This document shows positions 12,585 to 18,815 of a DNA stretch of 20,219 nt, piece by piece (within the stretch, counting starts at the first letter, position 1; the number at the start of each line of letters is the position of its first letter). Source of the stretch: a virus. Where the stretch lies: positions 1 through 20,219 of the IMG/VR virus record IMGVR_UViG_3300009159_000425. The stretch is one strand, 5' to 3'. Below the pieces are notes generated by a model that made no database searches, was not told the DNA's origin, and saw only the letters and a list, made by a program, of their open reading frames with translations. The position numbers and the translations under genes were made by a program.

Positions 12585-12731
12585 CTACGAAAGGTAAGCA
12601 CTTGCTACATTATACATCTGTTGCATCTTTTTAATTTCACCTACATTTCTTGGTAAATTAATTTGAACTTCAACACCTTTAACGTGATGTATATAACATT
12701 GTATTGCTGCTATTATTTGTCCGTAACTCAT
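12585..12731 (-). CDS. Small protein coupled to the large terminase, 48 aa
   Basis: A 48-residue ORF starting on the terminase stop codon (TAATG at 12729-12733). The product begins MSYGQIIAAIQCYIHHVKG, then VEVQINLPRNVGEIKKMQQM and a short tail ending in YLS. One helix-strand-helix unit seems likely. The one-base overlap with the terminase gene, the same join used elsewhere in this genome, implies that it is translated by reinitiation. No family recognised. Being made with the terminase makes a packaging accessory role conceivable. Confidence 0.65.
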   Translation of the reverse strand: MSYGQIIAAIQCYIHHVKGVEVQINLPRNVGEIKKMQQMYNVASAYLS

Positions 12732-13897
12732 TAGTATATAAAATAATTACCTTTGTGTGGGTTTTCTAATTGACTTGTTATTGCATAACGCATAGCATCT
12801 ATTGCGTGGTTATATGCATCTATTGGTCTATTCATTTTAATTCCTGTTTTATCAGTTTGCCAAATGTAGTTTCTTAATTCATTTATTAAGTTCTTGCTTC
12901 TTGATGTTACGTAAACTTTGTTTTGATTAATTAAATTAAGACCGAATAAGATACTATCTTTTCCTTTTGTAACTGGTAATACATTATGACCATAACTATT
13001 TAATTCAGCTATTGATTTTGGTTCAGCACTATCAGCGTAAACAAAATTGTTTACATTATTTGCTTTTAATAGATTTGATATTTCACTATTCAATAAACCT
13101 TTCTTATAAATCACTTCATCAAATATATAAGCATCATTATATTTGTACATTGTTACTAAACTTGTTGGGTCATTACTATAACCAAAGTCCATTCCGTAAC
13201 ATAATATTCTTGCATCTTGTGGTAAATCTATTTCTTGCCAGTCTGTAATACATACACCTTCTAAACTACCTGTTTGACCTAAACCATAAACTTGCCACCA
13301 GTTTGCCCAATATGTAGATGTTAATGCTTTTACTTTTGCTGCTTCTATTTCTTGAACTATTGTTTCTGATAATGCTTCATTATCTAAATAAGTCAATGTA
13401 ATAAAATCAACATCTGATTGTGTTAGTATTTCTTTATCAACCCAAAATGCTGATGTAGGATTATAATCTAACCATATATCACCTGATGTTCTAATTGCTA
13501 ACTGATAATAACTTTCGAAATCTATATTGTTACACTCATTAACATAAAGTATATTTCTTCTTGCACCTCTTAATTTATCAGGCTGGTCAACACTAAAAAA
13601 CTCAATATAACTTCCATTTGTAAATGTATATTTTAAAGTAGACTTATTAAACTGTGCATCATTATACCTACCTAATGCCATTATAATCTTTAAGAAGTCT
13701 TTTAATGCACCTCTACGTAAATGTGGTATGCTTTCAGATACAACACTTATTTCTAAATTAGGTTCTTTAATTGCTTTGTCAATTAGTAAAGGCAGAATAC
13801 CAAATGTTTTACCAGCTGATGTTCCACCTCTAATAACTTTAATACGTTGCTTTAAACGCAATAACTTTCTGATTGCAGTAGTTAATATAAACTCCAT
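12731..13897 (-). CDS. terL: Large terminase subunit, 388 aa
   Basis: The ATP-driven DNA-packaging motor and endonuclease. RGGTSAGKT at residues 23-31 is the Walker A motif of the ATPase. ILYVNE at 116-121 is Walker B with catalytic Glu121. SGDIWLDYNPTS at 138-149 is the coupling region. The nuclease domain starts near GMDFGYSNDPTS (D237), with further acidic metal ligands at YADSAEPKS (D289) and at AYNHAIDAMRYA (D367). The length is at the small end of the terminase range but all motifs are present, so it looks functional. The preceding gene is a small-subunit candidate 11 bases upstream. This phage-type terminase with 'RGGTSAGKT' is one I associate with Bacteroidota phages. Confidence 0.97.
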   Translation of the reverse strand: MEFILTTAIRKLLRLKQRIKVIRGGTSAGKTFGILPLLIDKAIKEPNLEISVVSESIPHLRRGALKDFLKIIMALGRYNDAQFNKSTLKYTFTNGSYIEFFSVDQPDKLRGARRNILYVNECNNIDFESYYQLAIRTSGDIWLDYNPTSAFWVDKEILTQSDVDFITLTYLDNEALSETIVQEIEAAKVKALTSTYWANWWQVYGLGQTGSLEGVCITDWQEIDLPQDARILCYGMDFGYSNDPTSLVTMYKYNDAYIFDEVIYKKGLLNSEISNLLKANNVNNFVYADSAEPKSIAELNSYGHNVLPVTKGKDSILFGLNLINQNKVYVTSRSKNLINELRNYIWQTDKTGIKMNRPIDAYNHAIDAMRYAITSQLENPHKGNYFIY

Positions 13898-15271: not shown

Positions 15272-15808
15272 TTAAAGTTTAATGTTTTTATTCATTCTAT
15301 AAACTGCTTGTAAACGTTCTAATATTATTTCTTGTTGTTCTTTACCTTCTGTATCTAATAGTAATGCTTCTATGTTGTTTACTATTTTGTAATTGTTTCT
15401 TGATGTTTGTAGGTTTATAATCTTTTCTTGCAAGTTTATATTTTCATCAGTTAGTTTCATTATTTCTATTTGTAAACTTTGTATCATTTCATCTTTAGAC
15501 AAATTTATTGATTGTTCTTCAGGTGTGTAGTTTAATCTTTGCAGTATTTCTTTTCTAAATAGTTTTAATGTTGGGTTAAACTTTTCAAACATATCATAGT
15601 TTTTTAATGAATGTAATACAGTTGCGTGGTCTTTTCCTACTGATGCACCAATAGATTGCAATGATTTCTTTTTATCTATTTGTTTTAATATCTTATAATA
15701 GATTGCTCTTGCTTCTATTATTTCTCTTTTACGTGATACCTTGTTTATATCTGCTCCTGTTATTTCTTTTATTATTTGTTTTAATTGTAATGTTATTTGC
15801 GTTTCCAT
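15272..15808 (-). CDS. Stand-alone DnaA domain IV-like DNA-binding protein with coiled coil, 178 aa
   Basis: Residues about 5-72 match the DnaA C-terminal DNA-binding domain: EIIEARAIYYKILKQ (helices before the turn), then KKSLQSIGASVGKDHATVLH. The GKDHATVLHS element (58-67) corresponds to the DnaA-box recognition helix region of bacterial DnaA. No Walker A or AAA+ core is present. Residues about 105-140 form a heptad-rich helix (LQIEIMKLTDENINLQEKI) that could dimerise it. Domain IV binds DnaA boxes at bacterial origins; here it might bind host or phage origin boxes to recruit or block initiation. It overlaps the preceding gene by 16 bases and lies in the replication/recombination block. Biological role is inferred; the domain call is firm. 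Confidence 0.85.
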   Translation of the reverse strand: METQITLQLKQIIKEITGADINKVSRKREIIEARAIYYKILKQIDKKKSLQSIGASVGKDHATVLHSLKNYDMFEKFNPTLKLFRKEILQRLNYTPEEQSINLSKDEMIQSLQIEIMKLTDENINLQEKIINLQTSRNNYKIVNNIEALLLDTEGKEQQEIILERLQAVYRMNKNIKL

Positions 15809-16020
15809 CTTATTTTTATTTTTTGTTTTTTACTTTCTTTTATTAGTTGTGTTAAAATATTGAATGATACTATTTCTACTACTAAATGTATTCCCTGACA
15901 TTCTTCATAAAGTTGTTCAGCTTCATATTCTTTTAATATTAATCTTATTTGTTCAATAGAAGTTCCTTGTTCTATTTCATATAAGGTAATATTATAATGT
16001 TCTGTTGCTATATCATTCAT
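15793..16020 (-). CDS. Hypothetical protein, 75 aa
   Basis: A 75-residue protein beginning MNDIATEHYNITLYEIEQGT, followed by a helical EQIRLILKEYEAEQLYEECQ and IHLVVEIVSFNILTQLIKES. The C terminus is strongly basic (KKQKIKIRWKRK), fitting nucleic-acid contact. Its ATG overlaps the upstream stop as TAATG (16018-16022), and its 3' end overlaps the DnaA-like gene by 16 bases. No family recognised. The coupling suggests a partner of the DnaA-like or nuclease-like neighbours, which is inference. Confidence 0.7.
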   Translation of the reverse strand: MNDIATEHYNITLYEIEQGTSIEQIRLILKEYEAEQLYEECQGIHLVVEIVSFNILTQLIKESKKQKIKIRWKRK

Positions 16021-16478
16021 TAGAATTCAAATCTTAATTTTTCTTTTATTTTGTTGTGTGTTTCTTGCTGAAAGAATAATTTTAATTGTTCATCATTTGT
16101 TGTTTTAAATATACCTTTTATAAAATCTGTTTTATTTTTTTTATTTATAACATTGTTTATATTTTTAATTTCATAAATCATTGTTATACCATCTATTGTT
16201 TCGCGAGTTTCAGTATTTACAGTTGAACGCACTATGAAACATTGTATTTTAGATTTATTATTTAATTGTACATCAGCATAATTAGATAAGTTTAATAAAG
16301 TATTTAATGATGTTTCATCTCCATTTTTTTTATGGTCAATCATAAATGTATTGAAAGTAAATTTAGTTATTACACAATCAATATCAATTATTGAACGTTT
16401 TACATCTGTTAATTCACTTATTAAATAATTAAATTCGTTGTTATGATAACTTGAATTAAATTTGTTTCTTGTTTGCAT
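16020..16478 (-). CDS. Possible PD-(D/E)XK-type nuclease-like protein, 152 aa
   Basis: A 152-residue protein. Residues 31-51 contain IDIDCVITKFTFNTFMIDHK plus K, giving a D34...D48-x-K50 layout that resembles the PD...(D/E)xK core of small phage nucleases. A following helix (TSLNTLLNLSNYADVQL) and a strand IQCFIVRS fit the alpha-beta-beta arrangement. It sits 2 bases after the thymidylate synthase-like gene and is joined by TAATG to the next. I recall phage proteins with 'diD.v..kf....i.ie.Kk.gd', but this one is divergent and the nuclease call is uncertain. Alternatives are an inactive nuclease-fold protein or an unrelated one. Confidence 0.6.
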   Translation of the reverse strand: MQTRNKFNSSYHNNEFNYLISELTDVKRSIIDIDCVITKFTFNTFMIDHKKNGDETSLNTLLNLSNYADVQLNNKSKIQCFIVRSTVNTETRETIDGITMIYEIKNINNVINKKNKTDFIKGIFKTTNDEQLKLFFQQETHNKIKEKLRFEF

Positions 16479-16480
16479 TT

Positions 16481-17113
16481 TTAAACATTTAAATTAAATT
16501 TAAAATTATTACCTTTTAATAAATTTTTAGTGTTTTCTATATTATTTTCATATATATGTGCATTGCCAATAAAAAATGTAATATTATTTAATTTTATATT
16601 TATTAATTTACTAATTAAATATATTTGATATAAATCACTTGGCAAACCTAAATTTGAATCAGCTAAGCGTTGATAAACAGTAATATTTAATTTATTTTCA
16701 AAAATTTGAAATTGTATTAAACTTAAACAAGGCAGTTGATTAGTTTCCGCTGTTGTATTACCAATAAATAAAATATAATTTTTTGATGGCTTTAATGTAT
16801 TAATTTTTTTTACTAAATTAGGTAAATCTTTAAAATAAGTAGGATAAGAATTTATAAGTTCAGGTTTACAATAATCCCACCACATAATTCCATTATTATT
16901 ATATTCTTTAATATTTGTAACACCATTAAAATATAATTCTAATTCTTTTGATAATTTTTGTTTTGCAACTGTATGTATTTTAAATAAATTTTCTAATTCA
17001 TTTTTATTAAAAGATAATTTTTGATTTAATAAAGCATAGCTATTTGCTTTTTTTGCTGTTTGTAATTTACCTTTATTTATTATTTTTTCAAGTAATTTAT
17101 AATATTTATTCAT
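16481..17113 (-). CDS. Divergent thymidylate synthase-family protein, 210 aa
   Basis: Aligns along its length with ThyA-type enzymes, which add a one-carbon unit to dUMP or, in hydroxymethylase relatives, dCMP. Visible matches: KELELYFNGVTN (residues 56-67, ELLWFLxGDTN in ThyA, catalytic Glu at 57); GIMWWDYC (75-82); LPCLSLIQF with the nucleophile Cys129; YQRLADSNLGLPSD (147-160), equivalent to YQRSxDxxLGxPFN; GNAHIYENN (183-191). Unusual: Asp160 replaces the base-selecting Asn, as in T4-type dCMP hydroxymethylase; PSKN (109-112) replaces the PDSRR phosphate-binding pair; L130 follows the catalytic Cys where His is usual; and the N-terminal RTGT loop is absent. At 210 residues it is shorter than ThyA (about 264). 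It may modify a pyrimidine nucleotide for phage DNA, or be inactive. Confidence 0.8.
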   Translation of the reverse strand: MNKYYKLLEKIINKGKLQTAKKANSYALLNQKLSFNKNELENLFKIHTVAKQKLSKELELYFNGVTNIKEYNNNGIMWWDYCKPELINSYPTYFKDLPNLVKKINTLKPSKNYILFIGNTTAETNQLPCLSLIQFQIFENKLNITVYQRLADSNLGLPSDLYQIYLISKLINIKLNNITFFIGNAHIYENNIENTKNLLKGNNFKFNLNV

Positions 17114-17131: not shown

Positions 17132-17896
17132 TTAAAGTATTCCTCTTAATACATATTGATTTAAATCCATATTTTCTTCACCAAAAAAATATTTATAGTT
17201 AGATATTGCTTGTTCTAACTTTGCTTTACCTTTAGCATAAAATTCATCACTACATTCAAAAATTGCTATATCTAAACTTCCTTTGTCTATTGCAACAAAA
17301 ATAAAGTCATCAACACCAAACATCTTTTTATAAAGATATGCTTGTAAATCATAGCTATATTTGTCAGCACTATATCTAAATTCTTTTACACCACTTGTAG
17401 TTTTCAAATCAATTATCATATTTGGCTTTAAGATATCTGCTTTTGCTCTAAATGCAATGCCATCTATCATTTCTACTGCTGGTATTTCTGTTTGTGATTT
17501 ACTCATTAAAGAAACTACTTCGTGGTTTTTCATTAGTGCATCAGTTAATCTTTCAGCATCGTTGTATTCTTTTCTTGTGTATACTTCTAAACCTTGTTCT
17601 TTTGCTAATTTGTATTCTTTTCCAGCTTTAGTTGCTACATCTACAATTACTAAATCATTTAACTTATGTGGCTCTAATATCATTGTGTGGAATAGTTTTC
17701 CATCACGTAATGCTTGGCTTTCATCTGAACCATATTGTGTAACGTATTTATAAGTTTTAGGTGAAGATATAAGCATTTTTGCTGATGAACTACTTAAAGC
17801 ATTTTTACTTAAGTATCCATAATAGAAACTATCATCATACATATTATCTAATAGTTCTTGTTTATCCCATTGTTTATTATCAAATGTTGTTATCAT
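17132..17896 (-). CDS. RecE/DUF3799-like PD-(D/E)XK exonuclease, 254 aa
   Basis: A 254-residue putative double-strand DNA exonuclease of the phage recombination type. LSKNALSSSSAKMLISSPK (29-47) is the family N-terminal motif, and ALRDGKLFHTMILEP (62-76) carries the conserved Gly/His. IPAVEMIDGIAFRAKADIL (138-156) leads into the catalytic strand IIDLKTTS (161-168) with the Asp163-x-Lys165 pair, and DLQAYLYKKMF (183-193) matches the QxxxY element. Such enzymes resect ends for annealing by a RecT-like recombinase. No recombinase gene is visible in this window. It is the second gene of size after the operon promoter and lies next to the thymidylate synthase-like gene. Confidence 0.88.
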   Translation of the reverse strand: MITTFDNKQWDKQELLDNMYDDSFYYGYLSKNALSSSSAKMLISSPKTYKYVTQYGSDESQALRDGKLFHTMILEPHKLNDLVIVDVATKAGKEYKLAKEQGLEVYTRKEYNDAERLTDALMKNHEVVSLMSKSQTEIPAVEMIDGIAFRAKADILKPNMIIDLKTTSGVKEFRYSADKYSYDLQAYLYKKMFGVDDFIFVAIDKGSLDIAIFECSDEFYAKGKAKLEQAISNYKYFFGEENMDLNQYVLRGIL

Positions 17897-18461: not shown

Positions 18462-18615
18462 AATTTCTAATTTTAGTTTGTATTAATCTTATCTTATCAT
18501 TTATCTTTTCATCATTTAAACCTTTTAAATATAATGATTGTCTTTTCTTAATTAAATGCATTAAAGTATATTCTAATTCTAATGTATCAAATACTATTTG
18601 TTCTGTTCTATCCAT
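18442..18615 (-). CDS. Small helical protein nested by overlaps, 57 aa
   Basis: A 57-residue ORF: MDRTEQIVFDTLELEYTLMH, then LIKKRQSLYLKGLNDEKIND and a basic helical end. It overlaps the upstream DUF3310 gene by 22 bases and the downstream 47-aa gene by 20 bases, in other frames. A coiled-coil-like helix is likely, but no family is recognised. Translation is supported by its filling the only gap between two well-supported genes. Confidence 0.55.
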   Translation of the reverse strand: MDRTEQIVFDTLELEYTLMHLIKKRQSLYLKGLNDEKINDKIRLIQTKIRNYANTNT

Positions 18616-18815
18616 TGTTCTTGTTCTTGTCTTAAATGTTGTAATTCTCTTTCTAAATAATCTATTGCTTTTTCTAAGTCTTTTATATGTGTGCCTTTGT
18701 GTTTTGCTCTTGCTACATATTTAATTACATTTCCTTCATTAAAGTTTAAATCATAGTCTTTAATAAAGTCTATAACATCATATTCTTTTTGGTTGTCATA
18801 ATGTACTGGTGTCAT
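18594..18815 (-). CDS. DUF3310-like protein, 73 aa
   Basis: A 73-residue protein matching the DUF3310 pattern: VHYDNQKEYDVIDFIKDYDL at 4-23 with an HY start, GNVIKYVARAKHKG at 28-41, and DLEKAIDYLERELQH at 46-60. These proteins are common in phages and sometimes called nucleotide kinase-like, but no reaction is firmly assigned. The family's GN-x-x-KY-x-x-R and DL-x-KA-x-x-YL elements are all present. The start overlaps the upstream stop by 4 bases (ATGA at 18812-18815). It belongs to the early block. Confidence 0.85.
   Translation of the reverse strand: MTPVHYDNQKEYDVIDFIKDYDLNFNEGNVIKYVARAKHKGTHIKDLEKAIDYLERELQHLRQEQEQWIEQNK

Follow-up and report, generated by a model that had tools for sequence, protein, structure and literature searches.

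A compact branch of the thymidylate synthase family in viruses of Bacteroidota, with replaced substrate-site residues

Described relatives of the thymidylate synthase fold

The described proteins compared here were thymidylate synthase (TS) ThyA (PF00303, TIGR03284), dCMP hydroxymethylase T4 gp42, CMP hydroxymethylase MilA, and dUMP hydroxymethylase SPO1 gp29. Positions 177 and 147 best separated TS proteins of cytosine-modified contigs from those of unmodified contigs (PMC8670742). In T4 gp42, Asp179 was the dCMP determinant and the D145N variant was inactive, and the hydroxymethylation signature further included Asp/Glu three residues before the catalytic Cys and Ser (or Thr) two residues before the catalytic Tyr (PMC6400193). 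MilA, which serves mildiomycin synthesis, used CMP with Lys133 at the Arg126 position (PMC5175136), and it had Asp186 at Asn177 and Ala176. SPO1 gp29 had an altered Arg pair (Arg-Gln) and an altered His147 (Asn), while it kept Asn177 (uracil type) and Asp three residues before Cys.

Hankyphages are common in human gut Bacteroides. Hankyphage (Bacteroides phage p00) encoded DAC76694.1, a member of the same subfamily as the TS-like protein analysed here (about 52% identical, with the same K-N, D, C-L, and Q signature); the genome was Mu-like, and the gene lay at its right end, next to one for an N6 adenine methyltransferase. Among public phage records, two fecal contigs lacking annotation were the only carriers of close relatives apart from Hankyphage-type Bacteroides phages, and the annotated relatives bore the name "thymidylate synthase". 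The literature search found no paper on the TS-like protein, and the Hankyphage literature that it retrieved made no mention of thymidylate synthase.

Genomic setting of the TS-like gene

The window (the whole stretch of DNA analysed, 20,219 nucleotides) was a 20.2-kb viral fragment with 26% G+C, and it was assigned to a tailed phage because of its terminase large subunit gene (12731..13897, minus strand; domain match). The TS-like gene (16481..17113, minus strand) encoded 210 amino acids; these coordinates and the translation agreed with the sequence-only reading, and the TS-family membership proposed there was borne out by PF00303 (E = 8e-20; 71.4 bits versus the curated cut-off of 24.3), which was matched by 47 of 47 family members tested. 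PHROG 160 (thymidylate synthase) was also matched. The gene was flanked by a DUF3799/exonuclease VIII-like PDDEXK nuclease gene upstream (17132..17896, minus strand; domain match) and by a downstream gene (16020..16478, minus strand) that started 2 bases past the TS-like stop codon and was present in L003, too. A DnaA C-terminal-domain protein gene lay farther downstream (15272..15808, minus strand; domain match), and the window gene, unlike that of Hankyphage, lay in a replication/recombination region. Across the window's lineage, the TS-like gene was free-standing with changing neighbours, and replication regions were frequent.

No domain fusions were detected among TS-like family ORFs, and no MuA relative was found within the 20 kb of the window. 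An anti-phage defence family was rejected for the TS-like protein, which had no match to such families in PADLOC. A 73-aa DUF3310 protein was encoded at 18594-18815 of the window; PHROGs put this domain at the end of phage proteins with a nucleotide kinase annotation, and the 73-aa protein was too short for a kinase itself.

Predicted fold, active site, and conservation

Structure prediction, one of the checks proposed in the sequence-only reading, was performed with AlphaFold2 on 47 members (pLDDT 95, pTM 0.92), and the best solved matches to the predicted model were ThyA structures (TM 0.83-0.86 by query length). The predicted fold was a complete TS core with shortened loops and without the C-terminal tail: the TS-like proteins stopped about 40 residues short, and the TS tail that closes the active site was absent.

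Residue equivalences were taken from a profile-profile alignment with 22 ThyA sequences (E = 7e-22), which placed D160 on Asn177 and S110-K111-N112 on Ser125-Arg126-Arg127; plain MAFFT alignment displaced the latter motif by one residue. Conservation was scored over 80 distinct sequences (the best 80 of 294 IMG/VR relatives), whose identity to the window protein ranged from about 50 to 98%. The residues invariant in these best 80 were E57 (codon 16943..16945; E. coli TS Glu58), Tyr93, K111-N112 (16778..16783; phosphate position Arg126/Arg127), Q126 (16736..16738; three residues before Cys), C129 (nucleophile; Cys129-Leu130 codons 16724..16729), R149 (Arg149-Leu150 codons 16664..16669), D152, D160 (16634..16636; Asn177 position), G183-N184, H186, and Y188, all codons being on the minus strand; position 130, equivalent to His147, was L in 78/80 and I in 2/80. 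The QRxxD element and the HxY motif corresponded to residues 148-152 and 186-188, respectively. Every residue named in the sequence-only reading (Glu57, Cys129, QRxxD, HxY, Asp160, Lys-Asn, and Leu after Cys) was found as described there; that reading had also named an alignment of homologs carrying the Arg pair and Asn as a possible refutation, and both were absent from the best 80 relatives. A sequence error behind K111, N112, D160, and L130 was ruled out by their (near-)invariance in that set.

Two features were added to that residue list, namely the absent C-terminal tail and Leu150. The latter was the only tested active-site residue private to the window: the other 79 sequences had Ser there (QRSAD motif), and the window codon (TTA, 16664-16666) was TCA in the 98%-identical L003. 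Either true variation or an error in the consensus may account for Leu150.

Comparison with ThyA and gp42

The TS-like family shared with ThyA the fold and the equivalents of Cys146, Glu58, Tyr94, Gln165-Arg166, Asp169, His207, and Tyr209, but it displayed the replacements Asn177 to Asp, His147 to Leu, Arg126-Arg127 to Lys-Asn, Leu143 to Gln, Trp83 to Cys, and Arg21 to Lys, lacked the C-terminal tail, and was about 50 residues shorter. It resembled T4 gp42 in having Asp at 177, a non-His residue after Cys, Lys in place of Arg21, and no TS-type tail, but gp42 had Asp145, Ser94, and Arg123-Arg124, while the family had Gln, Pro, and Lys-Asn, respectively. All of 21 gp42-like proteins kept Asp145 and Ser94 at the places of Gln126 and Pro91 in the family (Pro91-Tyr93 lay at Ser94-Tyr96 of gp42, where the loop alignment was less certain); position 126 was Asp/Glu in dCMP hydroxymethylases, Leu in TS, and Gln in the TS-like family. 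By the sequence features tested, the subfamily was neither ThyA nor gp42.

The double loss of the Arg pair, always to Lys-Asn, was the striking feature. The sequence-only reading took this loss to argue against ordinary nucleotide monophosphate binding, which over-read it: MilA used CMP with Lys at that place (PMC5175136) and SPO1 gp29 had Arg-Gln, so that single Arg-pair losses were compatible with nucleotide binding. The family, moreover, kept the equivalents of Arg166 and Ser167, and Lys21-Lys22 lay near the phosphate site.

Proposed function and mechanism

The reading put forward here, at about an even chance of being right, is that the TS-like gene encodes a folate-dependent TS-fold enzyme, a C5 methyl- or hydroxymethyltransferase that takes a cytosine nucleotide and contributes to phage DNA modification; a deoxycytidine nucleotide would be the most likely substrate. 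In the proposed mechanism, Cys129 would attack C6, Asp160 would pair with the N3/N4 edge of cytosine, and Glu57 and Asp152 together with the pterin pocket would transfer the one-carbon unit of methylene-tetrahydrofolate. With no C-terminal lid and a polar Gln instead of the shielding Leu, water would then attack the exocyclic methylene to give, most likely, 5-hydroxymethylcytosine; the alternative product would be 5-methylcytosine. Hydroxymethylation would be likelier than hydride transfer because the tail was absent and Gln was polar, as reasoned from the TS mechanism. The product would protect phage DNA from host nucleases, and the gene would act as an accessory one, often paired with an adenine methyltransferase.

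The cytosine reading was favoured by Asp at 177 and non-His at 147, which are markers of cytosine-modified contigs (PMC8670742). The proposed function as a whole was favoured by (i) the PF00303 membership and full TS core, with the tail absent as in T4 gp42, (ii) the retained catalytic and 3'-OH-binding residues under strong purifying selection, and (iii) the D12 methyltransferase adjoining the gene and the second ThyA-like match in a host carrying the family. It was weakened by (i) Gln126 for Asp145 and Pro91 for Ser94, given the inactive T4 D145N (PMC6400193), (ii) the absence from 50 records of a dNMP kinase or dCMP deaminase for taking modified dCMP to the dNTP, and (iii) the lack of a D12 neighbour in the window's lineage and the greater nearness of the family to ThyA than to gp42. 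The sequence-only reading had suggested a dCMP-type methyl- or hydroxymethyltransferase for modified phage DNA; its cytosine part gained from Asp160, the loss of His147, and the operon-like methyltransferase neighbour, while the case for a plain dCMP hydroxymethylase was weakened by differences at two of three published signature positions (PMC6400193).

Methyltransferase neighbour and mobile context

Neighbour clustering and a direct search placed a D12-class adenine methyltransferase gene (PF02086; PADLOC type II MTase, E = 6e-57) beside the TS-like gene in 31 loci, many of them in Mu-like phages. The two genes shared a strand in every case, with the methyltransferase gene upstream in 18 and downstream in 13, and in most of them they overlapped or were separated by no more than 40 bases. 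No D12 neighbour was detected in the lineage of the window. L064 and L085 had a different, Dam-like D12 gene in the methyltransferase place. The labels none, upstream, and downstream needed 14 changes on a quick tree with many weak branches, and the pairing therefore appeared to have been gained or lost several times. A transposase related to Hankyphage MuA was carried by 19/50 records, 0 of them from the window's lineage; in Hankyphages, the TS-like gene lay near the right end and the methyltransferase gene was the last one.

Other observations were made around these loci: (i) the D12 methyltransferase gene at L049:10623-11449 consisted of two ORFs that overlapped, through either a frameshift or an assembly error; (ii) in 13 loci (e.g., L063:6853-8163), RVT_1 reverse transcriptase genes preceded the TS-like gene at a distance of 3-6 genes on its upstream side, and Hankyphages had a diversity-generating retroelement at this place; and (iii) in the sister lineage, a 139-aa protein was encoded directly after the TS-like gene (L018:10633-11052 and L020:4527-4946), and its QIKTT stretch may point to a restriction-endonuclease-like fold.

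Helper genes and the level at which cytosine would be modified

A T4-type dNMP kinase was found in 0/50 family records versus 8/26 gp42-type records (Fisher p = 8e-5) and dCMP deaminase in 0/50 versus 13/26 (p = 7e-8), in a comparison where many records were fragments, several were related, and the gp42 phages were larger. PF08761 (dCTPase) was matched in 0/50 records, by a model whose ability to detect T4 gp56 was not established. A T4-like pathway, for which the kinase and the deaminase were sought in the 50 records, was rejected on their absence, this absence being suggestive in pointing away from it. With helpers lacking, the modification would, in one of three ways, rely on host kinases, take a di- or triphosphate as substrate, or act on DNA itself.

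It is possible, albeit doubtful, that a folate-using TS-fold enzyme would modify cytosine in DNA or dCTP directly, with a hydroxymethyl or methyl group. If true, this would be a one-gene cytosine modification without nucleotide kinase or dCTPase, available to small Mu-like and other Bacteroidota phages. Were cytosine modified without T4 helpers, Hankyphages, which are small and temperate, would have a simpler modified-DNA route than TS relatives described so far, and their Bacteroides host would make helper-free cytosine modification directly testable.

An unlikely version would limit the substrate to cytosine that is part of DNA or sits at its end, with the folate-dependent TS-fold transferase acting after replication like its methyltransferase neighbour. 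Such a substrate would agree with Lys-Asn for Arg126/Arg127 in every member (best 80 of 294), the lack of kinase and deaminase partners, the operon-like pairing with a DNA methyltransferase, and a mean net charge of +4 versus -5 in ThyA, a difference confounded by low G+C and the absent tail. It was opposed by the equivalents of His207 and Tyr209, binders of a free 3'-OH, which were invariant, and of Ser167, which was invariant outside the window; the retention of all three fitted a nucleotide with a free 3'-OH. To our knowledge, no TS-fold enzyme acts on a polynucleotide.

Other substrates

An enzyme of the MilA kind, acting on CMP or a related cytosine compound in the service of a nucleoside or signalling compound instead of DNA, was considered improbable. 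Lys at Arg126 and Asp at Asn177 were both as in MilA (PMC5175136), but the position of MilA Ala176, equivalent to 167, was the deoxy-type Ser in 79/80 of the best 80 members (Leu in the window), and the neighbours were DNA-modification and replication genes instead of nucleoside pathways.

There was still less to recommend a degenerate or non-canonical thymidylate synthase making dTMP for the phage, which was rated quite improbable. ThyA was indeed the nearest profile (E = 7e-22, versus 3e-6 for gp42), and public records used that name, but Asn177, His147, Arg126/127, Trp83, and the C-terminal tail were all replaced or absent, and the scores fell far below the NCBIfam TS cut-offs (TIGR03284: 57.3 bits versus 108.35; NF002497: 60.9 bits versus 327), while a genuine ThyA control scored 456-494 bits on these models. 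When 396 Bacteroidota genomes were searched with the profile, members scored below E = 1e-105, and ordinary ThyA did no better than 1e-17; two of the 396 carried a member (one being the centre genome of the search), and host genome G256, which carried one, also had a second, ThyA-like match. The gene represented a compact TS-family branch in viruses of Bacteroidota, not separated before, and the Hankyphage "ThyA" is probably misnamed.

An inactive relative retained for binding or regulation, as allowed for in the sequence-only reading, was very improbable: several substrate-site residues differed and the window copy also lacked Ser150, but Glu57, Tyr93, Cys129, Arg149, Asp152, His186, and Tyr188 were invariant in the best 80 of 294 and dN was much below dS (0.008 versus 0.20, window versus L003). 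The TS-like gene was under strong purifying selection, and a pseudogene was ruled out by the same comparison.

TS relatives outside the subfamily

The TS relative at L133:574-1329 (AP013540.1, marine Votkovvirus) had Asp instead of Asn177 (PYD), Tyr following Cys, and an intact Arg pair, and its gene adjoined those for dCMP deaminase and dTMP kinase; it resembled a cytosine-type TS of its own, accompanied by nucleotide partners, and a search for relatives of this Asp177-bearing TS gave 3 loci only. In Bacteroides phage B40-8 (L126:108-1398), a DNA N6-adenine methyltransferase gene directly preceded a TS gene of the ordinary Asn177 type, outside the TS-like subfamily. The solved proteins PDB 9iqu_A and 9iqc_A (234-238 aa), named thymidylate synthase, weakly matched T4 gp42.
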